Below are positions 18,232 through 46,628 of a stretch of DNA of 64,000 nucleotides, one piece after another. A program made the position numbers and the translations under genes. The DNA is from Ceratodon purpureus. Its lineage: Eukaryota; Streptophyta; Bryopsida; Pseudoditrichales; Ditrichaceae. The stretch's first letter is position 1, and each line of letters starts with the position of its first letter. A model generated the notes under the pieces. It saw only the letters and a program-made list of their open reading frames with translations. It ran no database searches and was not told where the DNA came from. The stretch spans positions 7,809,778-7,873,777 of the forward strand of contig CM026431.1 in assembly GCA_014871385.1 (NCBI GenBank), read 5' to 3'.

Positions 18232-18347
18232 AGCCGGGTGCTCAGCACAGAGCGAACTATTCTTTCGCCTTTTACTAAAGAATACCGTGCGCTGGGCACA
18301 CACACCGGCATATCCCAATTTTTGGATCGCCCCTAGCGGGGCCCAAC
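18232..18347 (+). ncRNA. U5 snRNA (solitary copy)
   Basis: Contains the invariant U5 loop 1 (CGCCTTTTACT) closed by TATTCTTT/AAAGAATA, a lower stem CTCAGC/GCTGGG, a basal stem GCCGGGTG/CACCGGC, the Sm site AATTTTTGG, and a 3' hairpin GCCCC-TAGC-GGGGC. U5 aligns the exons during both catalytic steps of splicing. All pairings are intact, so the gene is probably functional. Ends are set from structure and may be off by a few bases. Confidence 0.92.
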
Positions 18348-18590: not shown

Positions 18591-18662
18591 AGGTCCCGGC
18601 GAGATTTGAACTCGCGTTATTGGATTCAGAGTCTAATGTCCTGACCGCTAGACTACGGGACC
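18591..18662 (-). tRNA. tRNA-Gln (CUG), diverged copy
   Basis: 72 bases, matching the tRNA-Gln genes in the arms except for two anticodon-stem changes. Anticodon loop CTCTGAA gives CUG. Acceptor stem GGTCCCG/CGGGACC and T arm are intact. The anticodon stem TTAGA/TCCAA has one A-C mismatch (position 29/41), so it may be weakened or decaying. Confidence 0.85.
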
Positions 18663-26303: not shown

Positions 26304-27119
26304 AAATAGTACAAATTCATCATGTAATGTTGGTTAAATTATGGACTTATTTCTTCAGCGTCATTTCAAGACTAGATAAATTGCAAATTGAGATGGTTGA
26401 AAACCAACGACACAGACTATCCAACCTAGGGTAGAGACAGTGGATACAATGCGACCTAGCTGATACTCTTGGAAAGTTTGTACTACAAATTTCTCATATC
26501 CGCTTTAGTCATAAGACCTTGAATCAACCCCTACACGCCCAAGCCTGTCCTGGAGTTCGAAGATTTCAGAAAACCATGAGAAAGTATTACTTTGAGGAGC
26601 ATTTTAGAGATATGTACAAATGAAAGCACTAGATCTTGATTTTAAGGCTCAATTTGCGCAGATCTGAGTAGTAAAGCCATCACAAATCTGTTATCATTAT
26701 ATTTCAAACTTTTAACTAAAAGGTCCTACAATGGAATGGAATGGATTTTACATAAGCTATTCTTGACAAGGCTGCTTTCAAACTTTACATTCATTGCTTG
26801 TGTGTATAACCTCATTTGTTAAGATCATTTCCAACCTTTAGCTAATGCATACTCCGTATTATGCTTGGTCAAAGCATCACAAACTTCAGCAATCAAAAAA
26901 TACGTCAGAAATGTAACCTAGCAATATCAAATCCAACTATTAAACACGGTAATCACTATGACCAATTCCTGGAATGTCTCCATAAAAACCTCGTGAAAAA
27001 TTCATGAGGTAGGCGAATAGGAAATTCATCACAATCTAACGACCCTGTACAGCTCGCTTAAGTTGCGCAGTATATTTTCACATGCTGTAGTTCAAGCGAT
27101 TTCAACTTAATTCACCAAT
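26304..27119. other. Intergenic, between CDP-DAG synthase and the palindrome
   Basis: AT-rich, no gene seen. Contains the probable 3' UTR of the preceding gene. Confidence 0.5.
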
Positions 27120-27372
27120 ATAATAAACATTGACAGCAATAAGGTGAGATTCCTCCCCGCCGAGGCTCGCTGGTCTACAGACGGAACAAACGCGCCAAGA
27201 TGTGCAACTTCCACTCCCCGCGAAAGAGGATGTTCAGCAGCGAGCATGAGAACACTTCGAGCTGTGGCAGGGCCGGACGAAGAGGATTGACATGTGCAAA
27301 ACGGAATGACACAAACATATGTACTCTCATACGCAATGAGGGAAGCAACGCCACCCCTGTCGAGTACATAGA

Positions 27373-27391
27373 CTGGGCACACACACCGGCA
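27373..27391 (+). pseudogene. U5 snRNA fragment joined to its promoter
   Basis: CTGGGCACACACACCGGCATATCCC is the 3' half of the U5 stem, here directly behind a U5-type promoter (CTCATACGCAATG near 27326 and GAGTACATAG at 27362). The 5' half, loop 1, Sm site and 3' hairpin are missing. The rest runs into an unrelated hairpin element. It cannot make a functional U5. Confidence 0.8.
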
Positions 27392-27401
27392 TATCCCATT
27401 T

Positions 27402-27499
27402 TCTCATTTCTTCTAACTTGTTAATTTCTTCTAATTCTTCTCTCTATTGCATTAGAGGCAAGAACTAGAAGGAATTGATATGTTAGAAGAAATGATAAG
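27402..27499. mobile_element. MITE-like hairpin next to the U5 fragment
   Basis: TCATTTCTTCTAAC...TTAATTTCTTCTA-TTCTT pairs with AAGAACTAGAAGGAATTGATATGTTAGAAGAAATGA over about 90 bp. It begins where the U5 fragment breaks off, so its insertion or a linked deletion may have destroyed that gene. Mirror copy at about 43251-43348. Confidence 0.55.
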
Positions 27500-28112
27500 T
27501 TATTCTTTTGAAATCCATTGGCTTGAAAATTATGTTAGATAATAGATGTACAAAGACCGGTGCCTCTCACACGGACCCAACGTTGAGCTTGTGCTTGTGT
27601 CCGGAGCACCTGGCAGAGCCATCCATGTCCTCGCATGCATGCTCAACGCTACAAAACACTTTGCAGTGACTCCTGGTCTGGAAAATTCAGAGCCAGCCAT
27701 GAATGCCTTCGCAGATTTACGCTCATGTCGAATGGGTTCGACACGAAATGATGCAATCCACTAGGACAGGTTATGCAGTACGGGAGCTCATCTATTGTGA
27801 ACTCACGAATAACAGCTCGATGCGGCTACAGTTGATGTTCGAAACGAATTACAGCTCCTCCAAGTTGTGCAACCCCCGCGTCAGCAGTCGCTTCCTTCGC
27901 ACTCGGAGAGGCTGGGACTTCGTCACCCGAGACTAGAGCCTGTAGTCAGAGCGTTGAGCTGAGGCAGGGCAGGCAGGACGGGATCCAAAAAGATTCTAAC
28001 ATTACGTGATTGACAAGAATACATCATGTCCCATACGCAATGTGCCAATGGCAGGAGCGCAGGGTCCCTCCCGCGCACTGTAAACCCCGGCGCATCGCAC
28101 ACTTCACCGCAC

Positions 28113-28228
28113 AGCCCGGTGCTCATCACAGAGCGAACTATTCTTTCGCCTTTTACTAAAGAATACCGTGCGCTGGGCACACGCACCGGCATATCCCGAT
28201 TTTTGGATCGCCCCTTGCGGGGCCCAAC
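28113..28228 (+). ncRNA. U5 snRNA, left arm copy 1
   Basis: Loop 1 CGCCTTTTACT with TATTCTTT/AAAGAATA stem, Sm site GATTTTTGG and 3' hairpin GCCCC-TTGC-GGGGC are present. The lower stem reads CTCATC against GCTGGG (one mismatch) and the basal stem AGCCCGGTG/CACCGGC. Upstream element GTCCCATACGCAATG at 28028-28042 and TATA-like CTGTAAAC at 28078 are about 12 bp further apart than in the other copies, roughly one helical turn. Confidence 0.9.
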
Positions 28229-29039
28229 CAATAGCAAATCCTATACTGGAGAGCCAAACCTCGTGGTCTACTATAAAATCCACACCGTAACCTCGTGCTC
28301 TACTACGGCCGTGCGCATCGCTCCGACGTAGGCAGGTTCAGCGCCGGAGCTGGTGCTCCGCTACGACCACGACTCCCGCCCTGCTCTCTAGTGACTCTTT
28401 TTTGTTCCAGGTCGTGACGCTCAGTGTGCACCGACAATATCGACCGCATGAATGTCGTACCAATACGATGGTTGGTCGAGGTGGGATCTTCAGGTCGGTG
28501 GCTCGTCGCCGACGTGAGAACTGTGTCACGCAGAGTCCCAGCTTGTGCTGACAGAGTGCGACAGAGCTTCGTTCCCCAGATATTTCCACCGGAACTACTG
28601 ACTTGAGAGAGCTCAGACCGTGATTTCCAACGAATCTGTAAACCCTGGCCACCTCCCTTCATCCCGATTCAACTAATTTACCTGCACACTCCACGAATCT
28701 TGACTAGGAAACACATAATCTTCCCCAATAAAAGCGACCTTTTCAATTGATAACGCAAGCCGTGTTAAAAAAACCACGTAAGGATGGGTGCATGCATGCC
28801 GAAAATTTGTTCAAGGACTTGGGGAAATGATCAATCACTGAAACAAGGAGACCACGTTACCCCCACCATCGCTGACATCCTAAACTTCTTAACAGGCGCC
28901 ACACAAGAAATCTGAGCTCAGTGCCATTCAAAACTAGACATTAACGTCACAAAGCACACAGCATGTCCCATCCGCAATGGCCAGAGCGCTGCCACCCTTG
29001 TCGAGTACAAAGACCGGATCGCCCGACTGCCCGTCACGC

Positions 29040-29155
29040 AGCCGGGTGCTCAGCACAGAGCGAACTATTCTTTCGCCTTTTACTAAACAATACCGTGCGC
29101 TGGGTACACACACCGGCATATCCCGATTTTTGGATCGCCCCTCGCGGGGCCCAAC
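29040..29155 (+). ncRNA. U5 snRNA, left arm copy 2
   Basis: Has loop 1, basal stem, Sm site (GATTTTTGG) and 3' hairpin GCCCC-TCGC-GGGGC. The stem directly below loop 1 reads TATTCTTT/AAACAATA, giving a C-C mismatch in place of C-G; the same change is in the mirror copy. Promoter: GTCCCATCCGCAATG at 28965 and GAGTACAAAG at 29003. Function may be slightly reduced. Confidence 0.9.
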
Positions 29156-29670
29156 CAACACCGAAACCCAAACTGAAGCGCTCCCCGTTCGATAACAGAG
29201 CTGGAAGGGCCTTGGAACTTGGCCAGACGCGAAGAATGTGCTTGGGTAGCCCGGTCTACGAGAGTCACAAATGCACAACAGCAAAGGATGCAATCCGCCG
29301 AGAAACGTTATGCAACTAGTAGTAGGTGATCGAAAATTCATGTAATATGAACACACGAAAACCAAATAGTTCGAGAGTTGTGTAAACCGGTGGCCCAGGT
29401 GCGTTCGCAAGTTCACAGGTTCTTACCTGTGAACCTGTAAATACTCTCAATTGATGAACGCCATCAAACATACCAAGACCTGAGCGTCTTCAACGTGACT
29501 GCTGGCGTCCACAACGCCGCTGCTGCATGTGGTCCAACATTTGCAACCACAACTCTCCAGCCATATCTCACGCCCTGGGGACTGTCACCCGAGAGCATGT
29601 AATCACAATGAGCAAGGTGAGCTGGGAGTCTGGGCCCTGGGGTCCACATGTGAGATGCACGAATATAGAT

Positions 29671-29715
29671 GACCCATACTCGATGCTGGGATACTGCCCC
29701 GCTCTGGAGTACAAA
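29671..29715 (+). promoter_or_regulatory. U5 copy 3 promoter (upstream element plus TATA-like box)
   Basis: GACCCATACTCGATG at 29671-29685 and GAGTACAAA at 29707-29715, respectively about 75-61 and 39-31 bp before the RNA start. The same pair precedes copy 4 (about 30379 and 30415). Spacing between the two elements is about 21 bp, suiting Pol II snRNA genes of plants. Confidence 0.7.
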
Positions 29716-29745
29716 CGCCGTTGAGTCACACTCTCGACATAGACA

Positions 29746-29861
29746 AGCCGGGTGCTCAGCACAGAGCGAACTATTCTTTCGCCTTTTACTAAAGAATACC
29801 GTGCGTTGGGTTGCACACACCGGCATACCCCAATTTTTGGATCGCCCCTCGCGGGGCCCAA
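29746..29861 (+). ncRNA. U5 snRNA, left arm copy 3
   Basis: All U5 elements are present: loop 1, TATTCTTT/AAAGAATA, basal stem, Sm site AATTTTTGG, 3' hairpin GCCCC-TCGC-GGGGC. The lower stem has GTTGGG in place of GCTGGG, and one extra base (GGGTTGCAC) in the 3' strand. First unit of the tandem pair. Confidence 0.92.
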
Positions 29862-30453
29862 CCAACACCGAAACCCAAACTGAAGCACTCCCCGTTCCAT
29901 CACAAAGCTGGGAGGGCCTTGAAACTTAGCCAGACGCGAAGAATGTGCTTGGGTAGCCCGGTCTACGAGAGTGACAAAATGCACGACAGCAAAGGATGCG
30001 ATCGGCCGAGAAACGTTATGCAACTAGTAGGTGATGGAAAATTCATCTAATATGAACACACGTGCGAAAACCAAATAGTTCGAGAGTTGTGTAAACCGGT
30101 GGCCCAGGTGCGTTCTCAGTACAATCAGCAGAAACCTCAGCTTACCTGTGAACAGATACTCTCAATTGATGAACGCCATCAAACATACCAAGACCTGAGC
30201 GTCTTCGACGTGACTGCTGGCGTCCACAACGCCGCTGCTGCATGTGGTCCAACATTTGCAACCACAACTCTCCAGCCATATCTCACGCCCTGGGGACTGT
30301 CACCCGAGAGCATGTAATCACAATGAGCAAGGTGAGCTGGGAGTATGGGGTCCACATCTGAGATGCACGAATATAGATGACCCATACTCGATGCTGGGAT
30401 ACTGCCGCGCTCTGGAGTACAAACGCCGTTGAGTCACACTCCCGACTTAGACA

Positions 30454-30569
30454 AGCCGGGTGCTCAGCACAGAGCGAACTATTCTTTCGCCTTTTACTAA
30501 AGAATACCGTGCGCTGGGTACACACACTGGCATACCCCAATTTTTGGATCGCCCCTCACGGGGCCCAAC
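30454..30569 (+). ncRNA. U5 snRNA, left arm copy 4
   Basis: Intact loop 1, stems, Sm site AATTTTTGG and 3' hairpin GCCCC-TCAC-GGGGC. Basal stem strand is CACTGGC (G-U wobble instead of G-C). Second unit of the tandem pair and the closest relative of the solitary module at 18.2 kb in its downstream flank, which leads into tRNA-Gln. Confidence 0.92.
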
Positions 30570-30851
30570 CAACCTCAAAACCCAATCCGGAGAGCGCATC
30601 TTCATGTAACTTGACGCCAGGGCTGGGAGCAAGGCGGCAGATCTATCAGCCAGCCAAATAGACAGACGCGTTGGCGTTGCACAGGAGCGTGTCAAGCCCC
30701 GCCCATAGAGCTTCGATGGCACCGTTGTCAGAGGTGCCGGTGGGTGGCGAATCCATCACATCGACATTGCATTGATCAACTTGAGTGCGAGACTCGAGCA
30801 GGCAGTTGAAAATGAAAAAAGCAGTGCTCAACGATGATGGTGCTGGCGACG

Positions 30852-30923
30852 AGGTCCCGGCGAGATTTGAACTCGCGTTACTGGATTCAGAGTCCAATGT
30901 CCTGACCGCTAGACTACGGGACC
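30852..30923 (-). tRNA. tRNA-Gln (CUG), left arm
   Basis: 72-nt cloverleaf: acceptor GGTCCCG/CGGGACC, D arm TAGTCTAGCGGTCAGGA, anticodon loop CTCTGAA (anticodon CUG), T arm GCGAGTTCAAATCTCGC, discriminator U. Box A and box B promoter sequences are internal. It is antisense to the neighbouring U5 gene 4 and lies about 280 bp from it. Confidence 0.95.
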
Positions 30924-31407
30924 GGCGAAGATCGCAGAGGTCACTCCCGAACTGCTGTTCCGCCGCATTCAAACAGATTGCGCCTCGCGCACCTTTGACT
31001 TGTAAGCCGTCACGACGCTTCGCGTGTGGCGACGGTCACATGAATGTAAAGCCAGTTGTTGGTCAAGGCGGGATTTTGAAGTTAGTTGGCGATGTGGAAG
31101 CTGCGTGATTCAGTGCTTCATATGCCACTAACTGCAATGTTCGGGTGCCACACCCTCGATTTGACGGGGAAGTGTCATTGGAACCAGTTGAGCTCCATGA
31201 CATGCAGTTCTTGAGTACAATCGAAGGGCTCTGTGGTATTCAAGCAGGCGATCATCCTACCAAAGAAATGCACCGTTTGGCATACAACAGTGCTCGCAGT
31301 GTCGTGACAGTCGACTCAATTTACCGGATATTTACTTTGATGTTCAGAGTCCACTCTATACAGGACAATACAGTTTGGTTTGAATTGGATCCCTCGGAGG
31401 AGGGGTA

Positions 31408-31600
31408 GGGCTGCGCCGGCCAAGGAGATAGTGCAGGACCAAGGCGACGCTCGCGGGTCCGGGCAGCAAGCTGCCGGATGGACCCGCACCCAAAAAAAAA
31501 TTAGATTAATATCATGAGGGACGATGTCCCTCGTATCAGATATTAAACTGATAAGAACAGATACTACACTTGATCTTAGCCAAAAGGCCGAGAAAGGTAT
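31408..31600 (-). ncRNA. U2 snRNA, left arm
   Basis: Mirror of 38975-39167. RNA begins ATACCTTTCTCGGCCTTTTG, contains the branch-site-pairing GTGTAGTATCTG, stem IIa, the Sm site (AATTTTTTTTTGG), stem III (GGGTCC...GGACCC) and stem IV ending in GGCGCAGCCC. U2 pairs with the intron branch point. Promoter is on the right side: TATA-like GAGTATAAG and upstream element GGCCCATACGGATGG (read on the minus strand). Confidence 0.95.
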
Positions 31601-31853
31601 ATCTCTGCAGTGGCACCCCGCCCCCTTATACTCTGGCCCGCCTCACCTGCCTCCCATCCGTATGGGCCAAATATCATCAAACTGATTTTCTTGTGCCTGT
31701 GAGAAACATGAAGCATCATGATTCAGTACTGATCATTCCGAGCCGAAGCTTGAGCGGCCTGTGAGATCACCCCGCTCTGGTTGACTGTCAAATGAATACC
31801 ATCGTTTGAAACACTCAATTAGAGCCTAATATTCCTGAGTCAAGCGGAGTTCC

Positions 31854-32051
31854 ATGGGTACTGGTGTTGAAGTGCTGGTTAGTTCAGACTGGATGTGTCG
31901 TTCCAGAGCTGGTGAGCCCCGGAATATTGAAGCTTTCCGAGTGAGAAGCTGCCGTTTTGATGAAGCAATGGAGGACTCTCGTTTTGATGAGGCAGCACAG
32001 ATCCAGCAACTTGGCCAGGAACTACAATGTATATGCTTATTCCAAGACTGA
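31854..32051 (+). other. Possible gene-fragment exon between U2 and tRNA-Gly
   Basis: A 65-codon frame with a protein-like segment (FRVRSCRFDEAMEDSRFDEA AQ), in which the FDEA motif occurs twice, recalling UVR-type helices. It may be a captured exon. Nothing else of a gene is seen nearby, and the U2 promoter region starts just left of it. Mirror at 38524-38721. Weak support. Confidence 0.25.
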
Positions 32052-32177
32052 GTTTTGGGGATGAGCCAATTAAGAAACACTTACTTACTGCCCACTGATT
32101 GAACATCCAGCCATTCCAGCGCCCGATCCCCGTACGCTCCCTCACTAAGAACGTGGGGAACCATTGGGAACGGGGTG

Positions 32178-32249
32178 GCGTTTGTAGTCCAACGGTTAGG
32201 ATAATTGCCTTCCAAGCAATGGACCCGGGTTCGACTCCCGGCAGACGCA
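32178..32249 (+). tRNA. tRNA-Gly (UCC), left arm
   Basis: 72-nt cloverleaf with acceptor GCGTTTG/CAGACGC (one G-U pair), anticodon loop CTTCCAA (anticodon UCC), T arm CCGGGTTCGACTCCCGG and discriminator A. A T-run terminator (TTTCTCTTTTT) follows immediately. Confidence 0.96.
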
Positions 32250-32834
32250 ATTTCTCTTTTTGTTCCATCCCCTTCTGGAATCTTGGTGACAGGGTTTTTA
32301 AAGTTCATGGGATCAGTTCAAAGATTTCATACCTTAGTCTCATGTGGAGATTTTGGGGAATTCTAGAACACAAGCGATTTCATAAATAGTATGTTTTTAT
32401 CGTCCATCAACACATATTAAAGCATCCAAAAATGAATGAAAATACCTCCCCCATGAATTAGTAGAGATTGAAAAGGCAACCATACTAGACAAACATTAAA
32501 CAAAATCATACTTGCAAAATGCATTCATTAAGACCACCAAGTTTTAGTTAGAAAAAAATCATCGTGATTGAAATGACATTATCTTCACATGCAAAAACTC
32601 AATTGCGTCCTCTAATCTTGTGGTTGGGCCAAGGTCATTAACAAAACTAAGCAAATCTCAACATTGTCCTTGCACAAAGAAACTATAGAAATACAAAGAG
32701 ACAATAAAGTAACTCATTTTGGAAAATCTTGGATGGAAAATTATAGACTAGCAAATTAGAGCAAAGGAAAAAAATTGTCATCTCAATAATACTAGTATAT
32801 TGGATCATCTAAGGAATAAGAAGGAATCGGTGTC

Positions 32835-34963
32835 ATGGTTTGGACTCAAAGTTGGATTAATGAATTGGAGTTAGATCCAAACAAGGATTTCAATCAAGGA
32901 GAATCGACAAAACTGCGTAGACCAAGTGATTCTGAAGCATGGAAGGACATTGATAAGGAATATCCTGAATTCCTATATGAAGCCCGACATTTGAGAATTG
33001 CAATCCGTACGGATGGTTTTAATCCATATTCATTGAAGAGCTCCCAATACATTATATGACCAGTGATAATTATTATTTATAACTTTCCACACAGAATGTC
33101 AACAAAACTTGCATTTATGTTATTGACACTAATCATCCCAGGAAAATCTCAAGTTGTGAATATGGATACATACTATAGCCTTCTTTTTCAAGAATTACAA
33201 ATGTTGTGGAATCCGGGTTGTATAGTGAAAGACATTTCAAGGCCAGAGGAGGAGGAATTTAAAGTTCGAGCAATTGTGATGTGGACAATCAGCGACTATC
33301 TAGGGGCTTCAGCATGTTTGGGTAAGTACACTAATATTAAAGAGAAAATTTGATTAAATTTAAAACTGAGATAACATGTCAGTTAAAAAAATTATTATTT
33401 ATTTTAAAATTTATTCATAGTATTTGTTTTAAACACATCTTATTAATCGTATGTTGGGTGTTGGATACTAAGGTTTATCAACCTCAATGTACAATGCATG
33501 TTACTCATGCATGGACCAACTTCATGCAAGATGGTCAACTGCTCTTTACAAATGTAATTATCCCAAGTTTAGAATGTTTTTGGATGAAGACCATGATTCC
33601 CGGTGACAATCTTAAACATTACTTCAATGGATTGCCTGAATTTTTTCCTAAACCTCGAAAACATGGAGCTGAAGATTGGAATTATTTATGGTATTTTACT
33701 CAACAAAATAATGCAATGGAAGCAAGCACTAGCTAAGTTCAAAGAAGACCAAAATTGCCCGACAACATGAAAAGATATTTCATATTTCATGAATTGGAAT
33801 ATTGGAAAAAACTCAAAATTCATCATCTTTAAGACCCTATGCATGTTTTTCAAAATGTGTGCAAGTCGTTGAATGATCATCTAATTGGTGAAAAGGACAC
33901 GGAGAGCTATAGAGCCGATTTGAAGATCTCTAATACGAAGAAGGTATTATGGGACAAACAACCGAATGCAAGGGAAAGGATGGAATTCATTAAGGCACCT
34001 TATACTATGAATTCATCCGACAGAAAAGATTTTTTTTTGAAACTTGTGAAGCACATAAGAACCCCCAACAGGTTTTTGAGCCATATTACACAATGCGTTC
34101 AACAAAAATGACAACAAGTTTTTCGATTTGAAATTGCACGACTTCTTGAATATATTGCGGTATCATTTGCCGGTTGCTATTATTGGGAAAGATTCTTTAT
34201 CCGCTGGTATCAAAAAAAATGTATATCGATTATTTTGATATGCATGAAAGTTGTGCCAAAGGATAAATTGGAACTTCTCAAAAAAGAAGCCCCAATTATG
34301 TGTTCAATTTTGCAAATGCAATTTTCAACATAATTTTTTGATTCGCAAGAACATTTATTAATTCATCTACCTCAAGAGGTTCGATTTGCCGGTCCAGTAT
34401 ACATGCGATGGATGTTTTTTGTAGAGCGATGCATCAAAAACCTGAAGACCTTTGTAAGACAACAAACTAGACCGGAAGGGAACATTGGTGAAGGCTATTG
34501 TTTACAAGAGACAATGGGTATTCATCAAAGCTTGATTGGGAATCTAGATGAATATGCTCCTCGACTTTGGAGAGAAATCGAAGACATCAAAATCACACAT
34601 ATTGATTGTAAAACAAGTGTTTGTTGATGGGATGATTTTGATTTGTTTTTTCAATTTTATTATGTTTAAAAAATTCTCCTTAAAATATATTTTTTAGTAT
34701 ATGTTGTCTATTTGAATTTTGTAGATAATTCGTTTTATTTTTGCAAAAATATTTTAAAGATAAAAATCATTATATCTAATTTTGTCTGATTCTTTTTTTG
34801 TAAACATCGAATTATTAGATATGCTGCATTTTTTTCAAGAATTTAAATTTAGTGTAAGATTTGGTTGTAGTGTACGCTTTTGTTACAATAATGAGTGTCT
34901 AGTTTGCGACTAGTGTAAGGATTTTTTGTGTTGATTACACTAAACTTCTTATTTATAGTAGTG
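32835..34963 (+). mobile_element. Decayed CACTA (En/Spm, tnp2-type) transposon, right part
   Basis: Coding remnants in order: 32835-33059 (WKDIDKEYPEF and RIAIRTDGFNPYSLK, the tnp2 start region), 33063-33353 (YNFPHRMSTKLAFML, TLIIPGKS, KVRAIVMWTISDY), 33839-34111 (DPMHVFQNVCKSL, YTMNSSDRKDF) and about 34120-34627 (DUF4218-like, HLPQEVRFAGPVYMRWMF, ERCIKNLK). Several in-frame stops and frameshifts separate them, so no active enzyme is made. The 3' end at about 34963 reads ...TAGTAGTG and is preceded by subterminal TAGTGTAAG/TTACACTA repeats at 34850-34945, typical for CACTA elements. No matching CACTA 5' terminus is seen before 32835, so the 5' end is lost. The inverted-repeat breakpoint (33943) cuts through this element. 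Confidence 0.88.
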
Positions 34964-36631
34964 TTAGTTGATGTGTATAAGTGTGTCTTTGAGTTTGTAT
35001 GGGATTATGGGCAATTTGATAATCAGAACTAATGAAGAATTAAAGGTAACCTAGTTACTCTACGAATTTAGGTAGTGTATTATTTTTTCCCATATTTCAA
35101 TGTAAGATAGTTATTCCATAGAATTTATAGCTTATAGAAATGAAAAATCCAATTTCACGTAGTAAATCATTTCAAATTATTTCTTGTTTCAAATGACAAG
35201 AATGCATTCCATGCCACCATCGGAGTCAATGTGCAATGGTATCCTTATTTCTCAAATCCTAGATTCAGAGGTCTTACATATTTGTAGATTCTGGGTCCTG
35301 AGTACAATCTCTCCAGTCTTAAAGAAATCGCCGATTCAAGATTGACATAGATATGTTGTACCGAGCTTGTACATTTCACCTTCACATAGATTTCAATATA
35401 CATTCAAAAACTATTACAAATGCTAGACAAACATGTAATCCTTTTGGGACAAAAGAGCGACATAAAAATGTTTTTGAAAATGTGTTACAAACATGTCAGA
35501 AGATAAGTCTTACAAAATTCTAACTATTTCAGCCGTAGATAGAATTTTCTTTGATTAAGATTGTAACTATTTCAGCGGTAATTACCCTATCATGCGTGAT
35601 AGGGTAATTCCAAAATAGCCCCCAATGGGTTATTTGTCGTTTAGGGATTACAGGTGGTATGGTACGTAGTAGCTTGTAGTGATTAACAGGAGAATAACAT
35701 TGATTATGTTTTTATTTTCTCATCAATTCTAAAATTATCTATATTTCACTCATAAGTATTATGGCATTTTTAAAGAGATGGGATATTTTATTAGTGGATG
35801 TGAAACGTAATCATCTTAACAAAGGATTCAATGAAGAAGTGTTCATTTAGTACACTCTTGGCTTTTGTGAAGTAGAAGAGATTAAAAAGTCTATTGTTTA
35901 CATAAAGCGATGCATAACTTTTAGCATATTTTGTACAAGTGTTCTAAAGTTTTGAAATTTACACTCTCTTCAGCTAATTTGAACTCTTATGTTTTATTAA
36001 AGACTTCATGATTATATTACCCTAAATACATTGATGATTTAATGATAACTGAGAATTGTACTATCAAATTGTATTGGCTTTCTAAAGCTTTGTAGTGAAT
36101 ATCATATGAATTTTATCAAAATGTTAAGGATATGAAAACATAAAACTACCAGTAATATCTTGAATGCCCACAATTTTCTTGAAGTTTTAATAATTTTCTA
36201 GATATTTCCATACTTTATGTGGATTAAATATTCTTTTAGTTCGTTCCATAGTCCTCTAAAATTTTTACTGATGCTAAAAGTTTCTATTCTCTTCAAGATG
36301 TTTCTAGACTCTTTCAGAAGTTTTCTCTATCTTTGACAACTTTTGTAGTTTTTTTGAAGTTTCCATAGATGTTTAGGAAGCTAATTGAAAACCTTTCCAA
36401 TACATATGCCTTTTTTTGTATATAATTAGGATTGATGTTGCAATCTTTGTTGTATGTTGTATGGGATGATGTAAAAATTTGAGACAAGTTTGATTGTGAT
36501 GATTAATCACAATAAACTTTATCATTTTCAATTGATTTTATTTTGAAATATTTTTGCAAATATCTTTTTTCTTTTATTGCTATTTCAACGGATCTATATC
36601 CATCATTTCTCTTTTGTTGCTATATCCGTCT
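34964..36631. other. AT-rich spacer between the palindrome arms
   Basis: No gene or further transposase sequence seen. Contains a short perfect hairpin TTACCCTATCATGCGTGATAGGGTAA at 35581-35606. Together with 33944-34963 this makes the 2.7-kb single-copy centre of the inverted repeat. Confidence 0.6.
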
Positions 36632-36694
36632 CTTCTTCGTATTAGAGATCTTCAAATCGGCTCTATAGCTCTCCGTGTCCTTTTCACCAATTAG

Positions 36695-37740
36695 ATGATC
36701 ATTCAACGACTTGCACACATTTTGAAAAACATGCATAGGGTCTTAAAGATGATGAATTTTGAGTTTTTTCCAATATTCCAATTCATGAAATATGAAATAT
36801 CTTTTCATGTTGTCGGGCAATTTTGGTCTTCTTTGAACTTAGCTAGTGCTTGCTTCCATTGCATTATTTTGTTGAGTAAAATACCATAAATAATTCCAAT
36901 CTTCAGCTCCATGTTTTCGAGGTTTAGGAAAAAATTCAGGCAATCCATTGAAGTAATGTTTAAGATTGTCACCGGGAATCATGGTCTTCATCCAAAAACA
37001 TTCTAAACTTGGGATAATTACATTTGTAAAGAGCAGTTGACCATCTTGCATGAAGTTGGTCCATGCATGAGTAACATGCATTGTACATTGAGGTTGATAA
37101 ACCTTAGTATCCAACACCCAACATACGATTAATAAGATGTGTTTAAAACAAATACTATGAATAAATTTTAAAATAAATAATAATTTTTTTAACTGACATG
37201 TTATCTCAGTTTTAAATTTAATCAAATTTTCTCTTTAATATTAGTGTACTTACCCAAACATGCTGAAGCCCCTAGATAGTCGCTGATTGTCCACATCACA
37301 ATTGCTCGAACTTTAAATTCCTCCTCCTCTGGCCTTGAAATGTCTTTCACTATACAACCCGGATTCCACAACATTTGTAATTCTTGAAAAAGAAGGCTAT
37401 AGTATGTATCCATATTCACAACTTGAGATTTTCCTGGGATGATTAGTGTCAATAACATAAATGCAAGTTTTGTTGACATTCTGTGTGGAAAGTTATAAAT
37501 AATAATTATCACTGGTCATATAATGTATTGGGAGCTCTTCAATGAATATGGATTAAAACCATCCGTACGGATTGCAATTCTCAAATGTCGGGCTTCATAT
37601 AGGAATTCAGGATATTCCTTATCAATGTCCTTCCATGCTTCAGAATCACTTGGTCTACGCAGTTTTGTCGATTCTCCTTGATTGAAATCCTTGTTTGGAT
37701 CTAACTCCAATTCATTAATCCAACTTTGAGTCCAAACCAT
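36695..37740 (-). mobile_element. Truncated tnp2 transposase copy (mirror)
   Basis: Reverse-complement copy of the 5' two thirds of the left-arm transposase remnant (37516-37740, 37222-37512, 36839-37225 and the start of the DPMHVFQNV segment). It stops at 36632, where the palindrome ends; the DUF4218 part and 3' terminus are absent. Confidence 0.88.
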
Positions 37741-38325
37741 GACACCGATTCCTTCTTATTCCTTAGATGATCCAATATACTAGTATTATTGAGATGACAA
37801 TTTTTTTCCTTTGCTCTAATTTGCTAGTCTATAATTTTCCATCCAAGATTTTCCAAAATGAGTTACTTTATTGTCTCTTTGTATTTCTATAGTTTCTTTG
37901 TGCAAGGACAATGTTGAGATTTGCTTAGTTTTGTTAATGACCTTGGCCCAACCACAAGATTAGAGGACGCAATTGAGTTTTTGCATGTGAAGATAATGTC
38001 ATTTCAATCACGATGATTTTTTTCTAACTAAAACTTGGTGGTCTTAATGAATGCATTTTGCAAGTATGATTTTGTTTAATGTTTGTCTAGTATGGTTGCC
38101 TTTTCAATCTCTACTAATTCATGGGGGAGGTATTTTCATTCATTTTTGGATGCTTTAATATGTGTTGATGGACGATAAAAACATACTATTTATGAAATCG
38201 CTTGTGTTCTAGAATTCCCCAAAATCTCCACATGAGACTAAGGTATGAAATCTTTGAACTGATCCCATGAACTTTAAAAACCCTGTCACCAAGATTCCAG
38301 AAGGGGATGGAACAAAAAGAGAAAT

Positions 38326-38397
38326 TGCGTCTGCCGGGAGTCGAACCCGGGTCCATTGCTTGGAAGGCAATTATCCTAACCGTTGGACTACAAACGC
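38326..38397 (-). tRNA. tRNA-Gly (UCC), right arm
   Basis: Exact mirror of 32178-32249: same acceptor, anticodon loop CTTCCAA and T arm, and the T-run terminator on the left side. Confidence 0.96.
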
Positions 38398-38906
38398 CAC
38401 CCCGTTCCCAATGGTTCCCCACGTTCTTAGTGAGGGAGCGTACGGGGATCGGGCGCTGGAATGGCTGGATGTTCAATCAGTGGGCAGTAAGTAAGTGTTT
38501 CTTAATTGGCTCATCCCCAAAACTCAGTCTTGGAATAAGCATATACATTGTAGTTCCTGGCCAAGTTGCTGGATCTGTGCTGCCTCATCAAAACGAGAGT
38601 CCTCCATTGCTTCATCAAAACGGCAGCTTCTCACTCGGAAAGCTTCAATATTCCGGGGCTCACCAGCTCTGGAACGACACATCCAGTCTGAACTAACCAG
38701 CACTTCAACACCAGTACCCATGGAACTCCGCTTGACTCAGGAATATTAGGCTCTAATTGAGTGTTTCAAACGATGGTATTCATTTGACAGTCAACCAGAG
38801 CGGGGTGATCTCACAGGCCGCTCAAGCTTCGGCTCGGAATGATCAGTACTGAATCATGATGCTTCATGTTTCTCACAGGCACAAGAAAATCAGTTTGATG
38901 ATATTT

Positions 38907-38950
38907 GGCCCATACGGATGGGAGGCAGGTGAGGCGGGCCAGAGTATAAG
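38907..38950 (+). promoter_or_regulatory. U2 snRNA promoter (right arm)
   Basis: GGCCCATACGGATG at 38907-38920 and GAGTATAAG at 38942-38950, about 68-55 and 33-25 bp before the U2 start. The upstream element shares CCCATAC and the following -ATG with the U5 promoters, indicating common SNAPc-type recognition. Confidence 0.75.
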
Positions 38951-38974
38951 GGGGCGGGGTGCCACTGCAGAGAT

Positions 38975-39167
38975 ATACCTTTCTCGGCCTTTTGGCTAAG
39001 ATCAAGTGTAGTATCTGTTCTTATCAGTTTAATATCTGATACGAGGGACATCGTCCCTCATGATATTAATCTAATTTTTTTTTGGGTGCGGGTCCATCCG
39101 GCAGCTTGCTGCCCGGACCCGCGAGCGTCGCCTTGGTCCTGCACTATCTCCTTGGCCGGCGCAGCCC
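38975..39167 (+). ncRNA. U2 snRNA, right arm
   Basis: 193 nt starting ATACCTTTCTCGGCCTTTTG; carries the branch-site-recognition GTGTAGTATCTG, the stem-loop II region (TTATCAGTTTAATATCTGAT), Sm site AATTTTTTTTTGG, stem III (GGGTCCATCCGGCAGC.. GGACCC) and stem IV ending GGCGCAGCCC. Structure intact. Confidence 0.96.
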
Positions 39168-39651
39168 TACCCCTCCTCCGAGGGATCCAATTCAAACCAA
39201 ACTGTATTGTCCTGTATAGAGTGGACTCTGAACATCAAAGTAAATATCCGGTAAATTGAGTCGACTGTCACGACACTGCGAGCACTGTTGTATGCCAAAC
39301 GGTGCATTTCTTTGGTAGGATGATCGCCTGCTTGAATACCACAGAGCCCTTCGATTGTACTCAAGAACTGCATGTCATGGAGCTCAACTGGTTCCAATGA
39401 CACTTCCCCGTCAAATCGAGGGTGTGGCACCCGAACATTGCAGTTAGTGGCATATGAAGCACTGAATCACGCAGCTTCCACATCGCCAACTAACTTCAAA
39501 ATCCCGCCTTGACCAACAACTGGCTTTACATTCATGTGACCGTCGCCACACGCGAAGCGTCGTGACGGCTTACAAGTCAAAGGTGCGCGAGGCGCAGTCT
39601 GTTTGAATGCGGCGGAACAGCAGTTCGGGAGTGACCTCTGCGATCTTCGCC

Positions 39652-39723
39652 GGTCCCGTAGTCTAGCGGTCAGGACATTGGACTCTGAATCCAGTAACGC
39701 GAGTTCAAATCTCGCCGGGACCT
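39652..39723 (+). tRNA. tRNA-Gln (CUG), right arm
   Basis: Same 72-nt gene as 30852-30923. A T6 run (GCTTTTTTC) about 35 bp downstream may end transcription. Confidence 0.95.
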
Positions 39724-40005
39724 CGTCGCCAGCACCATCATCTTTGAGCACTGCTTTTTTCATTTTCAACTGCCTGCTCGAGTCTCGCACTCAAGTTGAT
39801 CAATGCAATGTCGATGTGATGGATTCGCCACCCACCGGCACCTCTGACAACGGTGCCATCGAAGCTCTATGGGCGGGGCTTGACACGCTCCTGTGCAACG
39901 CCAACGCGTCTGTCTATTTGGCTGGCTGATAGATCTGCCGCCTTGCTCCCAGCCCTGGCGTCAAGTTACATGAAGATGCGCTCTCCGGATTGGGTTTTGA
40001 GGTTG

Positions 40006-40121
40006 GTTGGGCCCCGTGAGGGGCGATCCAAAAATTGGGGTATGCCAGTGTGTGTACCCAGCGCACGGTATTCTTTAGTAAAAGGCGAAAGAATAGTTCG
40101 CTCTGTGCTGAGCACCCGGCT
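40006..40121 (-). ncRNA. U5 snRNA, right arm copy 4'
   Basis: Mirror of 30454-30569, with the same wobble CACTGGC in the basal stem and 3' hairpin loop TCAC. Promoter elements lie on its right side (about 40160 and 40196). Confidence 0.92.
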
Positions 40122-40713
40122 TGTCTAAGTCGGGAGTGTGACTCAACGGCGTTTGTACTCCAGAGCGCGGCAGTATCCCAGCATCGAGTATGGGTCATCT
40201 ATATTCGTGCATCTCAGATGTGGACCCCATACTCCCAGCTCACCTTGCTCATTGTGATTACATGCTCTCGGGTGACAGTCCCCAGGGCGTGAGATATGGC
40301 TGGAGAGTTGTGGTTGCAAATGTTGGACCACATGCAGCAGCGGCGTTGTGGACGCCAGCAGTCACGTCGAAGACGCTCAGGTCTTGGTATGTTTGATGGC
40401 GTTCATCAATTGAGAGTATCTGTTCACAGGTAAGCTGAGGTTTCTGCTGATTGTACTGAGAACGCACCTGGGCCACCGGTTTACACAACTCTCGAACTAT
40501 TTGGTTTTCGCACGTGTGTTCATATTAGATGAATTTTCCATCACCTACTAGTTGCATAACGTTTCTCGGCCGATCGCATCCTTTGCTGTCGTGCATTTTG
40601 TCACTCTCGTAGACCGGGCTACCCAAGCACATTCTTCGCGTCTGGCTAAGTTTCAAGGCCCTCCCAGCTTTGTGATGGAACGGGGAGTGCTTCAGTTTGG
40701 GTTTCGGTGTTGG

Positions 40714-40829
40714 TTGGGCCCCGCGAGGGGCGATCCAAAAATTGGGGTATGCCGGTGTGTGCAACCCAACGCACGGTATTCTTTAGTAAAAGGCGAAAGA
40801 ATAGTTCGCTCTGTGCTGAGCACCCGGCT
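40714..40829 (-). ncRNA. U5 snRNA, right arm copy 3'
   Basis: Mirror of 29746-29861, including the GTTGGG variant and the extra base in the 3' strand of the lower stem. Confidence 0.92.
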
Positions 40830-41419
40830 TGTCTATGTCGAGAGTGTGACTCAACGGCGTTTGTACTCCAGAGCGGGGCAGTATCCCAGCATCGAGTATG
40901 GGTCATCTATATTCGTGCATCTCACATGTGGACCCCAGGGCCCAGACTCCCAGCTCACCTTGCTCATTGTGATTACATGCTCTCGGGTGACAGTCCCCAG
41001 GGCGTGAGATATGGCTGGAGAGTTGTGGTTGCAAATGTTGGACCACATGCAGCAGCGGCGTTGTGGACGCCAGCAGTCACGTTGAAGACGCTCAGGTCTT
41101 GGTATGTTTGATGGCGTTCATCAATTGAGAGTATTTACAGGTTCACAGGTAAGAACCTGTGAACTTGCGAACGCACCTGGGCCACCGGTTTACACAACTC
41201 TCGAACTATTTGGTTTTCGTGTGTTCATATTACATGAATTTTCGATCACCTACTACTAGTTGCATAACGTTTCTCGGCGGATTGCATCCTTTGCTGTTGT
41301 GCATTTGTGACTCTCGTAGACCGGGCTACCCAAGCACATTCTTCGCGTCTGGCCAAGTTCCAAGGCCCTTCCAGCTCTGTTATCGAACGGGGAGCGCTTC
41401 AGTTTGGGTTTCGGTGTTG

Positions 41420-41535
41420 GTTGGGCCCCGCGAGGGGCGATCCAAAAATCGGGATATGCCGGTGTGTGTACCCAGCGCACGGTATTGTTTAGTAAAAGGC
41501 GAAAGAATAGTTCGCTCTGTGCTGAGCACCCGGCT
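41420..41535 (-). ncRNA. U5 snRNA, right arm copy 2'
   Basis: Mirror of 29040-29155, sharing the C-C mismatch below loop 1 (AAACAATA). Confidence 0.9.
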
Positions 41536-42521
41536 GCGTGACGGGCAGTCGGGCGATCCGGTCTTTGTACTCGACAAGGGTGGCAGCGCTCTGGCCATTG
41601 CGGATGGGACATGATGCACACGTACTGCTGTGTGCTTTGTGTGGACCCTGTCGAGCCGGCATGGCCTCAGGTCGATCAATATGTGATCACATGCTTTCTG
41701 GTGACAGGCCCAGTCTCTCCGGGTGTCATTTCAGTTTTGGATAATTCGGAAACTGTTCAGCTGTGTGTTCAAGGGTATGTACGTGTGCGAAGTTTGTGAC
41801 GTTAATTTCTTATTTTGAATGGCACTAGTTAGAGCTCAGATTTCTTGTGTGGCACCTGTTAAGAAGTTTAGGATGTCAGCGATGGTGGGGGTAACGTGGT
41901 CTCCTTGTTTCAGTGATTGATCATTTCCCCAAGTCCTTGAACAAATTTTCGGCATGCATGCACCCATCCTTATGTAGTTTTGTAACACGGATTGCGTTAT
42001 CAATTGAAAAGGTCGCTTTTATTGGGGAAGATTATGTGTTTCCTAGTCAAGATTCGTGGAGTGTGCAGGTAAATTAGTTGAATCGGGATGAAGGGAGGTG
42101 GCCAGGGTTTACAGATTCGTTGGAAATCACGGTCTGAGCTCTCTCAAGTCAGTAGTTCCGGTGGAAATATCTGGGGAACGAAGCTCTGTCGCACTCTGTC
42201 AGCACAAGCTGGGACTCTGCGTGACACAGTTCTCACGTCGGCGACGAGCCACCGACCTGAAGATCCCACCTCGACCAACCATCGTATTGGTACGACATTC
42301 ATGCGGTCGATATTGTCGGTGCACACTGAGCGTCACGACCTGGAACAAAAAAGAGTCACTAGAGAGCAGGGCGGGAGTCGTGGTCGTAGCGGAGCACCAG
42401 CTCCGGCGCTGAACCTGCCTACGTCGGAGCGATGCGCACGGCCGTAGTAGAGCACGAGGTTACGGTGTGGATTTTATAGTAGACCACGAGGTTTGGCTCT
42501 CCAGTATAGGATTTGCTATTG

Positions 42522-42637
42522 GTTGGGCCCCGCAAGGGGCGATCCAAAAATCGGGATATGCCGGTGCGTGTGCCCAGCGCACGGTATTCTTTAGTAAAAG
42601 GCGAAAGAATAGTTCGCTCTGTGATGAGCACCGGGCT
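42522..42637 (-). ncRNA. U5 snRNA, right arm copy 1'
   Basis: Mirror of 28113-28228 (offset 70750), with the same CTCATC lower stem and AGCCCGGTG basal strand. Confidence 0.9.
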
Positions 42638-43250
42638 GTGCGGTGAAGTGTGCGATGCGCCGGGGTTTACAGTGCGCGGGAGGGACCCTGCGCTCCTGCC
42701 ATTGGCACATTGCGTATGGGACATGATGTATTCTTGTCAATCACGTAATGTTAGAATCTTTTTGGATCCCGTCCTGCCTGCCCTGCCTCAGCTCAACGCT
42801 CTGACTACAGGCTCTAGTCTCGGGTGACGAAGTCCCAGCCTCTCCGAGTGCGAAGGAAGCGACTGCTGACGCGGGGGTTGCACAACTTGGAGGAGCTGTA
42901 ATTCGTTTCGAACATCAACTGTAGCCGCATCGAGCTGTTATTCGTGAGTTCACAATAGATGAGCTCCCGTACTGCATAACCTGTCCTAGTGGATTGCATC
43001 ATTTCGTGTCGAACCCATTCGACATGAGCGTAAATCTGCGAAGGCATTCATGGCTGGCTCTGAATTTTCCAGACCAGGAGTCACTGCAAAGTGTTTTGTA
43101 GCGTTGAGCATGCATGCGAGGACATGGATGGCTCTGCCAGGTGCTCCGGACACAAGCACAAGCTCAACGTTGGGTCCGTGTGAGAGGCACCGGTCTTTGT
43201 ACATCTATTATCTAACATAATTTTCAAGCCAATGGATTTCAAAAGAATAA

Positions 43251-43377
43251 CTTATCATTTCTTCTAACATATCAATTCCTTCTAGTTCTTGCCTCTAATG
43301 CAATAGAGAGAAGAATTAGAAGAAATTAACAAGTTAGAAGAAATGAGAAAATGGGATATGCCGGTGTGTGTGCCCAG
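43251..43377 (-). pseudogene. U5 fragment plus hairpin element, right arm
   Basis: Mirror of 27373-27499: U5 3'-stem fragment at about 43359-43377 adjoining the TTCTTCTAA hairpin at 43251-43348. Promoter-like GAGTACATAG equivalent is on its right side. Confidence 0.75.
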
Positions 43378-43670
43378 TCTATGTACTCGACAGGGGTGGC
43401 GTTGCTTCCCTCATTGCGTATGAGAGTACATATGTTTGTGTCATTCCGTTTTGCACATGTCAATCCTCTTCGTCCGGCCCTGCCACAGCTCGAAGTGTTC
43501 TCATGCTCGCTGCTGAATTACGCCCAGAGTCCTCTTTCAGTGCACAATATGTCACTCGCTGGAAGTGGAAGTTGCACATCTTGGCGCATTTTCTCTAGGT
43601 CTGAACATCAGCGAGCCTCGTCGGGGAGGACTCTCACCTCATTGCTGTCAACTTTTCATATCGTTCTTAT

Positions 43671-44047: not shown

Positions 44048-45386
44048 CTACACATTGGCATGAAAGTCTGCGAGGAGTAAGGATCCAGCGATGGGTCGAA
44101 GTTTTGTGTCCTGCCAGGCTATGTGCTCCACACTCGCAAACACCTCCTCTTCGTCCTCTGTGCTGGGGAAGAGCTCCAAAATTCCATAATTGAACCCCTT
44201 GGCTTTATCGGATGGAAATAATGTGCCCGCACTTGCCTGGCCTATCGTGGGGCATCTGCACCCATTCAGATGACAATCTCATCAATCAGCAAACACTGAC
44301 CATGCAGAGGGTTTGCAAGTTTGATTCTGAAGGAAGTTGGAACTTGCTTTGAATTACAGCATGTGGAAAAAACACTGCAGAGCCTCGGATAGAGTATCAA
44401 GGCGAAGAGAGTGGTGTACTTTGAGGGCAGCCGTGGTATTGATTCTTCCATGAACCGCAAGTCCGCGGAGGAAGTACCTTCCTTGATTTTCACAAGGGTA
44501 ATGCGCTTGGCCATAATGCTCTCAAGATATGGCCCGTAGGGTTTGCACTCCCAGTCCACGGTGACCATATTTTCTGTGAGCGGGACCAGAAATTTCTTCG
44601 CGATTTTGGCAAAATCAGGATTGGCTGTGAATGCCGCTAAAGCCTTTTTGTCTCTGTATCGCCCGTGCAAAACATGCGTGTAATCGCCCCCCTGCACCTG
44701 CAAAGCAATGCACCCAAATGTCAGGCAGTTGATCCTCTATCAACAACTTCAGCAAAGCCTCTCCAGACTACTTAAACCTAATTTGTCACAACCCAAAAAA
44801 CTTCAGCGCAGTATCTGTGGTCTATAATCGTATGTCACAGGGCGTTTCTGTTCAAGTGCAAAGTGTTATAAGACCCATATCGCACTCTCACATTTCTTCA
44901 TCATGCTAATCAAAGGTTTAAAATGTCGTGTGAAGAAGCCGCTGAATCACGAACTTACTGGATATGGAACTGTGACAGTGATCCTGCTAACTTTGCACTG
45001 AGAAGGAAATCGTTCACATCCTTACTCACATATTACAATCCGGACACTGTGTGTCTCATCTTCGGCAGTGCTATGAACAAGGAGATTGAAGGATACTTTA
45101 CCGAAAGTGCCTGCCCCACAGTCAATTCCTGCACTCCATCCAGCTTACGGAGCCCGCGAATCGCTTCCAACATGGTTGCTACCTCCTTCGGATTCGCATC
45201 GTCTTTTACCTTAAACATCACAATATGCTCCAGCACCGGATATTTGAAACCTGGCGCCAGTTCCTTGAACGAAGCAATCGACGCTCTTCTTTCGCTCGAA
45301 GACCTCGCAGCAATCAACGAGTCTCGACGCGCGCGCAAAGCAACATCGACCACCGGTATTGACGGCCTTCGCAAGCGCCAATCCAT
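44048..45386 (-). CDS. Stress-response A/B-barrel (Dabb) domain protein, two domains
   Basis: Three exons read right to left: 45386-45102, 44697-44420, 44255-44048; 257 codons, 256 residues, phases 0 and 2 matching, donors GTAAAG and GTACAC, acceptors TTTGCAG and GGTGCAG. The Met at 45386 is the first in the open frame. Residues 1-45 are Arg/Ser/Ala-rich (possible transit peptide). Domain 1 (about 50-145) has VLEHIVMFKVKDD, the VQELTVGQ strand and THVLHGRYRDKKAL. Domain 2 (about 155-256) has RITLVKIKEG, then FNYGILELF and LLLADFHANV at the end. Dabb proteins are small ferredoxin-like barrels, often dimeric and stress-induced; the biochemical role of the two-domain plant type is not firmly known. 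The second intron falls inside domain 2. Confidence 0.85.
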
Positions 45387-46628
45387 TCTCCAACTTCTTC
45401 CAACACAGTCTAAATTTGCAACTAAGAATGCCAGTGGCCGAGAAATGTATGCAAATACATCACAGCTTACAGGTTTCCTCGAGAGGATGCTCTCACACTT
45501 GAATCCATGCGTAACAGCGGATTGGCTTCATTTCACAATCCTAAGGAATCGTGTTGAGTGTAGAATCCCAGACTCTCCATCATTCAAGCCAGGCTACATT
45601 CCAATGCATTGATACCAGTCATCAAAATTGGGTTTCGTCATCCTCACTCATCATCTTCTGCATCTTGCGCTAGGGTTTCAGCAGATAGCAACTCCATTCA
45701 CTTGTGAATAATCACCATACAACGGCGCTGGACAAGTTCATGAATGGCAGTTGTACTTCCATTTGAAACTTCACACGCTCATGTGATTTTCTGCGGACTC
45801 TTCTTCTGACATGTAAATAATCATGAATCCGTCGTTCCGACATCCTGCCGGAGTTTAGTTCGCCTGAGCCATTTGTGTCTTGCCATTGAACTGATCAAAA
45901 CTAAGGTTGATGCGATGAGCCTCGAATTTCCCTCAGAAATCTCGCTTCTCACCGGAAGAACCCAAACTTTCAAACCTAATACGTCAAGCATGGATATTGA
46001 TTGCAAGACGATGACCTAAAACTGTAGGTGTTGTTTAGCATGGTGATGAAAAGCATTCCATCTGAATGCATGAGAGGCTACTGTTTCAGATTCGATACAC
46101 TTCATGTCCTGTATTTCGTATGACGATCAATTGCAGCTACTGTTTTTCATATTGGCAAATAAACCGGACTGTATCACAAGAGGAGAACTAGAATCCACAA
46201 ACGGATACATCCAGAATCATTTCTGGTGGTGAGACTGCAATGTCGTTCACACAGTGTAACTTGGCAAACCATCACGATTTGTTTCCTGGAGCTGGAGACG
46301 CAGACCAAATTTTTACAGTAATCACAACGGCTGTAGTTAACGGTGCAACGGTTGTGTGTTTCGAAGGCAACTCTTCGTTGTCAGTGTAGTGTAGGAAGTC
46401 CAGAGTTTCTGCTTTGAGAAATCCTTATTGTTTGATGTCTAGTCCAGAACATACTGTACATTTGCATGTTTTTGCTCAAAATCTCTTATGAGTCCAATAG
46501 TTTCTGGTCATCATGCATTGAGCGGATTGATATGGTAAAACTCGTGGAAAAGCTGGAAGGAGGGTTTCAAGTTGTTGCGTTCTAAGGTTTGTTCTGAAGC
46601 TGAGATAACATTAGCTGACTTCGCCGTT
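45387..46628. other. Intergenic between Dabb and glyoxalase genes
   Basis: Contains the probable promoter of the Dabb gene and the 3' UTR of the glyoxalase gene (both minus strand). The 229-codon plus-strand frame at 44923-45612 lies mostly opposite Dabb exon 1 and is a shadow. Confidence 0.5.

Follow-up and report, generated by a model that had tools for sequence, protein, structure and literature searches.

An interrupted palindrome of U5, U2 and tRNA genes in the moss Ceratodon purpureus with signs of gene conversion between its arms

Organisation of the palindrome

The stretch of DNA analysed here (the window; 64,000 nucleotides, C11:7809778-7873777) belongs to the 17.2-Mb contig CM026431.1, designated C11 below, of the Ceratodon purpureus genome assembly (362.5 Mb, 151 contigs). 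Positions 27120-43661 of the window are occupied by an interrupted palindrome, in which an inner and an outer pair of arms carrying spliceosomal U5 and U2 RNA genes and tRNA genes surround a spacer of 2,688 bp (33944..36631, 30% GC). The original prediction, made without database searches, had placed a large near-perfect inverted repeat at 27120..43665 with mirror sums of 70575 for the inner and 70750 for the outer arms; the repeat was found at this place, and both sums were reproduced by self-comparison. The inner inverted repeat (28959-33943/36632-41616) is 4,985 bp long and the outer one (27233-28772/41978-43517) 1,540 bp.

According to global alignment, the left outer core (27233..28757, + strand, 1,525 bp) does not differ from the right outer core (41993..43517, - strand) by a single mismatch. 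The left inner core (28959..33943, +) and the right inner core (36632..41616, -) show three mismatches, at 28961, 30832 and 30978, all of which lie outside genes. Thus, the core arms, longer than the spacer between them, are more than 99% identical (3 mismatches in 6,510 bp), and their length together with this identity cannot be due to chance. The two core tracts are separated by an apparently unconverted island located at 28758..28958 (+; about 200 bp, 201 bp by coordinates) in the left arm and at 41617..41992 (-) in the right arm. The island contains 8 mismatches according to BLAST and 12 in the global alignment, some of the latter at gap edges, and gaps of 1, 5 and 171 bases. In addition, a sensitive search extended the arm homology outward to 27120 and 43661, and these outer edges (27120..27232, +, and 43518..43661, -) are only 76% identical.

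The genes in the arms were identified using the Rfam covariance models for U5, U2 and tRNA and, for tRNA, the ARAGORN program. Each arm contains four U5 genes, one U2 gene, tRNA-Gln(CUG) and tRNA-Gly(UCC), and 7/7 genes are identical between the arms. All of them are full-length covariance-model matches above the gathering score. In the left arm, the U5 copies a to d are located at 28113..28225 (82 bits), 29040..29152, 29746..29859 and 30454..30566 (all +) and are followed by tRNA-Gln (30851..30923, -), U2 (31406..31600, -, 175 bits) and tRNA-Gly (32178..32249, +). Their mirror copies in the right arm are tRNA-Gly (38326..38397, -), U2 (38975..39169, +), tRNA-Gln (39652..39724, +) and the U5 copies d to a (40009..40121, 40716..40829, 41423..41535 and 42525..42637, all -). 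A U5 fragment near 27371-27402, in the left outer core, has a visible counterpart in the right arm. The gene content of the original prediction was confirmed for each arm. The four U5 copies of an arm differ from each other by some percent, and its tandem U5 units are only about 91-92% alike, whereas the mirror copies are identical; the units do not form a head-to-tail array of near-identical copies. Upstream of the four U5 genes of an arm, a CCCATNCGCAATG or CCCATACTCGATG box is present together with an A/T-rich box closer to the gene, while GGCCCATACGG and TATAAG precede the U2 gene; these putative promoter boxes resemble the plant upstream sequence element (USE). A related single unit was found to the left of the palindrome, with an unpaired U5 gene at 18232..18344 (+) and tRNA-Gln at 18591-18662 (-).

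The left inner boundary (33943) is crossed by a broken transposon (32820..35531, +), which we take to be of the En/Spm (CACTA) type from its tnp2 transposase pieces (32820-33350; E-values of 1.4e-13 and 1.5e-17) and DUF4218 domain (34334-34627; 3.2e-20). Its homology to other copies continues until 35531. Copies of the element on contigs C5 and C2 run through the 33943/33944 junction without a break, and their match to the right arm starts only at 36632, indicating that the original order is retained on the left side and that the end of the right arm lies within the element. Such an end would fit either copying that stopped at this point or a one-sided central deletion. Reading of the boundary sequences by eye, with no systematic test, revealed no inverted repeat at the inner junction.

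Relationships of the outer edges and cores

Two non-palindromic paralogues located on the same contig, P8220 (C11:8.22 Mb) and P9022 (C11:9.02 Mb), were compared with the arms. The left outer edge is 93.9% identical (139/148) to P8220 and the right outer edge 94.5% identical (173/183) to P9022, whereas the left and right edges share only 75.9% (110/145). In the adjacent core the relationship is reversed: the left and right arms are 100% identical (468/468), while P9022 is 89.6% identical to either arm (415/463 against the right one). The quartet site counts were 9:0:0 at the edge for the grouping of left with P8220 and right with P9022 (117 ungapped columns), and 8:0:0 and 6:0:0 in the core for the grouping of left with right (138 and 209 columns), with bootstraps of 2000/2000 for each of the edge and core quartets. 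The breakpoint falls within the outer-edge homology, at about 27190-27233. The flanks agree with this grouping: the right one is common to P9022 as far as 44407, and the left one to P8220 as far as 22704, except for a 3,861-bp stretch (23223-27083) that is missing from P8220 and in which self-comparison found no repeats.

Since the nearest relatives change between edge and core, the arms appear to be two older, diverged inverted units that were made alike by copying. The discordance of the edge and core quartets, obtained through paralogues and not through species, means that the arms are older than their identity suggests. The island points the same way: P9022 carries the right-arm form, indicating that stretches of about 5 and 171 bases, present in the right arm and in P9022, were lost from the left arm. 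Arm-to-arm gene conversion, as suggested in the original prediction, is therefore supported on two counts: the trees on either side of one breakpoint disagree, and an unconverted island separates near-identical tracts.

We consider it quite likely that ectopic gene conversion brought inverted U5/tRNA-Gln units, already about 20-24% diverged, to near-identity along 6.5 kb of each arm. The starting state would have been two such units in opposite orientation, and the palindrome may have originated from them through template switching or a break-induced copy. Non-reciprocal copying from arm to arm, perhaps initiated by a long break-induced copy, would then have overwritten one unit with the other on both sides of the heterology, which was skipped. 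Conversion may have been repeated through arm pairing, its tracts being limited by heterologies such as the deleted stretch, the transposon and the spacer. The effect would be identical U5, U2 and tRNA copies at a high gene dose, and many other small-RNA gene clusters of the genome may have been shaped by the same process. In the outer core, either arm may have been the source of the copy.

Several points weigh against this explanation. The edge segment is short, providing just the 117 ungapped quartet columns, and P8220 aligns poorly to much of the core (146/200). The differences between the arms and P9022 (29 with GC and 37 with AT in the arms) give no GC bias, although conversion needs none, and GC-biased conversion was accordingly rejected. 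Within one genome, the data fit both repeated conversion and a single large act of copying with a smaller one after it. Finally, for most of the 19 other loci described below the evidence consists of high arm identity.

Other small-RNA palindromes in the genome

The palindrome is not the lone curiosity it might have seemed, as 19 more inverted-repeat loci with small-RNA genes could be confirmed. Together with that of the window, the 20 loci were verified at the sequence level over 0.6-7 kb on contigs C1, C2, C5, C9, C11, C12 and C13; for a part of them, the reading covered the complete arms and the spacer. Families already seen in palindromes led to the U5, U2-like and Ala loci, while the Trp, Met and U6 families were not chosen in this way.

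The U5 survey covered the best 40 of 96 candidates, and 16 regions were read on C1, C4, C5, C8, C11, C13 and C147. Palindromes were present in four of these regions, and the 12 others were without any of this grade. The four lie at C11:8.19 Mb (1,916 bp, 99.8%), C11:8.46 Mb (2,970 bp, 99.8%, and 1,228 bp, 98.5%), C11:9.43 Mb (2,641 bp, 99.5%) and C13:13.76 Mb (2,527 bp, 99.6%); in the last, two U5 genes without mirror partners flank tRNA-Ala and tRNA-Leu. The palindrome at C11:9.43 Mb shows a pattern similar to that of the window, in that its near-identical core is accompanied by homology further out that has diverged (88.6% identity across 561 bp). The U2 survey (45 matches; best 46 of 13,634 candidates) gave mirrored U2-like pairs, and all three that were read, at C2:22.78, C9:8.50 and C2:23.99 Mb, are palindromes. 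Short U2-like RNAs of 119 nt, scoring 59-60 bits against a gathering score of 46, occur with their mirror copies in three palindromes (L029:1879-1997, L030:2560-2678 and L031:2017-2135) and may belong to a U2 family of reduced length or be pseudogenes.

The nine tRNA loci with mirrored copies (six Trp and three Ala, compared as ten pairs) were inverted repeats of 97.4-100% over 0.9-1.5 kb in 10/10 pairs. Identity within the tRNA-Trp palindromes was 97.7-100%, against 67-86% between homologous clusters, barring short matches over the tRNA genes. The U6 pairs were inverted repeats in 3/3 cases: 622 bp at 100%, 637 bp at 99.5%, and 691 bp at 93.9% (1 mismatch and one gap). From match positions alone, tRNA-Gly (C7), tRNA-Gln (C2) and six initiator-Met pairs are further candidates.

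Two tRNA-Trp palindromes on C2, with clusters 78% alike, are everted relative to each other, a Ser gene being next to the centre in one and Leu(AAG) in the other. Similarly, U5 lies outside in the U5/tRNA-Gln palindromes of the window and of C11:8.46 Mb, and tRNA-Gln outside in those of C11:8.19 and 9.43 Mb. Because one palindrome may thus be everted relative to another with a homologous cluster, the palindromes probably originated more than once in this genome.

Gene orientation, controls and tandem arrays

Adjacent copies of one family within 20 kb of each other were counted as opposite or direct pairs. tRNA-Trp gave 7 opposite and 0 direct pairs, with 13/19 genes in opposite pairs (5/24 rows, short or diverged, were dropped); tRNA-Gln 5 and 4, with 10/32 genes (two of the four direct pairs are halves of split genes); initiator Met 6 and 2, with 12/25 genes (5/30 rows dropped); and U6 3 and 2, with 6/23 genes (1/24 rows dropped; best 48 of 30,530 candidates). 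Among protein genes, cytochrome P450 (P450), which served as the control, gave 2 opposite pairs, with unequal scores, and 5 direct ones, with 4/92 loci (best 92 of 382 candidates, so that some partners may be missing; 21/113 rows were dropped as pieces of listed genes), and light-harvesting complex (LHC, PF00504) genes of at least 131 bits gave 4 opposite pairs, with equal scores, and 6 direct ones, with 8/32 genes. The 53/85 LHC rows dropped below 131 bits include further equal-score opposite pairs. Fisher's test against P450 yielded 1.7e-9 for Trp, 1.8e-4 for Gln, 7.6e-7 for Met, 0.004 for U6 and 0.002 for LHC, values that are rough, as two paired genes are not independent observations.

Since LHC genes also form equal-score opposite pairs, a class confined strictly to small RNAs was rejected. 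The LHC pairs read (2/2) are 94.6 and 94.9% alike round the gene and 84-86% beyond it, lower values indicating that these two are not of the small-RNA palindrome grade. Chlorophyll a/b-binding genes at C4:2597460-2630518 stand in mirrored order about 27 kb apart with equal scores, which might be a larger protein-gene palindrome. No inverted repeats of at least 300 bp at 95% or more were found in 156 kb comprising the window flanks and 12 loci, which were chosen through U5 or the window and not at random; with other settings, short local inverted repeats (257-377 bp, 94-96%) were detected at C11:8.22 Mb.

The tRNA-Ala hits matching all 74 bases (8/8, among the best 40 of 107 candidates) fall in four mirrored pairs; 31 of the remaining 32 listed genes lie in one direction on C9, mostly in a 933-bp tandem array, and one on C1. 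Among the best 40 of 73 candidates, most tRNA-Gly genes belong to tandem arrays, located on C12 and C1. Palindromes and tandem arrays are thus two modes existing side by side. The arrays are located at C9:5.945-6.012 Mb (tRNA-Ala(UGC), 933-bp period) and at C12:2.899-2.932 Mb and C1:14.125-14.142 Mb (tRNA-Gly(UCC), 843- and 858-bp periods).

Alternative explanations

As to why such palindromes exist, they may be a neutral by-product: small-RNA genes would be sites of fork stalling or breakage, and palindromes would be left behind, without benefit, by efficient homologous recombination. This explanation, compatible with conversion as the way in which the arms became alike, seems to us evenly balanced. 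It agrees with a broken tRNA gene in one arm only in two confirmed sister palindromes and with the repeated formation of palindromes with opposite centres; however, in the window neither arm has a damaged copy of any of the seven genes, and the U5 copies retain their promoter-like boxes.

That one unit was copied over the other in a single long break-induced event, in place of repeated conversion, is a possible but less probable course of events. The single breakpoint within the outer-edge homology and the almost uniform core agree with it, whereas the diverged island dividing the core would call for a second event or an older date of copying. A recent foldback duplication of one arm (snap-back or template switch) with no subsequent conversion, the other proposal of the original prediction, is improbable. 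Arm divergence near zero and the abrupt cut of the transposon at the inner boundary, with a left side continuous with copies elsewhere, agree with it, but the arms extend outward into edges that are 24% different and related to two different paralogues, and the tracts with 0 and 3 mismatches enclose an island that has at least 8. The edge and core quartets contradict such a duplication unless an earlier diverged inverted unit was overwritten, which leads back to gene conversion. Although near-identical arms are difficult to assemble, an inverted twin made from one arm by the assembly is very unlikely, since the outer flanks differ and are each common to an independent paralogue, indels distinguish the arms, and two sister palindromes carry one-arm insertions of 3,301 and 4,805 bp.

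Comparison with known systems

In Dictyostelium, which has a haploid genome, identical tRNA genes occur in close pairs; we know of no long converted arms with small nuclear RNA (snRNA) genes there. The human RNU2 genes form a head-to-tail tandem snRNA array undergoing concerted evolution. Unlike these tandem units, the copies described here are mirror arms, and the tandem units within an arm are not homogenised (91-92%).

The papers on conversion consulted here deal mainly with sex chromosomes. The palindromes of the human Y and willow W chromosomes (PMC7023750; this and the other PMC articles are cited from excerpts) are alike in their inverted arms with highly similar stretches, evidence of arm-to-arm conversion and multicopy arm genes; those described here differ in lying off the contig of more than 100 Mb, in being small (arms of 0.6-7 kb seen) and many, and in bearing tRNA and snRNA genes. 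The U and V chromosomes of C. purpureus each exceed 100 Mb in a genome of 360 Mb (PMC8000587). The only contig of this size is C6 (coordinates to 105.6 Mb), which, judging from its size, would be the sex chromosome; the small-RNA copies listed lie off it, except for a partial tRNA-Gln, a divergent Met and a weak U2 match (55.5 bits).

Palindromes of the parthenogenetic Folsomia candida (PMC5490193) likewise represent inverted duplication outside a sex-chromosome setting, but the Ks values given there speak against concerted evolution, and the two palindromes described in the excerpt hold protein genes. Inverted triplications and palindromes formed by origin-dependent inverted-repeat amplification (ODIRA; PMC10766186) resemble the present case in template switching at inverted repeats and in spacers that grow via secondary rearrangement; that mechanism is known for yeast and human copy-number variants, whereas no short junction inverted repeat is established here. 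According to the same source, long palindromes are unstable and rare in natural genomes. No report of small-RNA palindromes was found among the best 10-20 matches of each literature search, which is weak evidence of absence because subscription papers and preprints were mostly outside the coverage.

Tentatively, and with somewhat less than even confidence, palindromes may be regarded as a usual setting in which this genome houses its tRNA and spliceosomal RNA genes, formed repeatedly and kept alike by conversion, that is, an autosomal device of concerted evolution beside tandem arrays and not tied to sex chromosomes. The small-RNA inverted-repeat loci, at least 20 in number, offer natural replicates for studying palindrome formation, the ends of conversion tracts and the likeness of tRNA and snRNA copies. 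Homologous recombination is very efficient in the moss Physcomitrella (PMC3729371), and in its relative studied here conversion rates could be measured experimentally.

Insertions in tRNA genes and flanking genes

Inserts of 0.5-14 kb interrupt several tRNA genes close to the A box or D arm, and 16-26 tRNA bases are repeated at both ends; the terminal repeats were read for two inserts (16 and 18 bases), and the others follow from match ranges only. The split genes are at L010:6233-9630, C2:23984k (L031:2897-7736), C1:3642361/3642870, C11:9029223/9041818 and C5:15793033/15806842. A search of a one-arm insert for terminal repeats resembling long terminal repeats, by which it could be dated, found none. 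A single tRNA-specific element was rejected as the source of the insertions, as the two other end-read copies of the 3.3-kb element lie outside the tested tRNA types and the tRNA-Lys insert is unrelated to it. Since no relationship exists between the two inserts read, tRNA genes may be a favoured target of more than one element. The genes flanking the palindrome in the window encode a ceramidase-like protein (7098-7712), a Dabb-domain protein (44266-45527) and a haloperoxidase-like protein with a VCPO domain (56253-57767).

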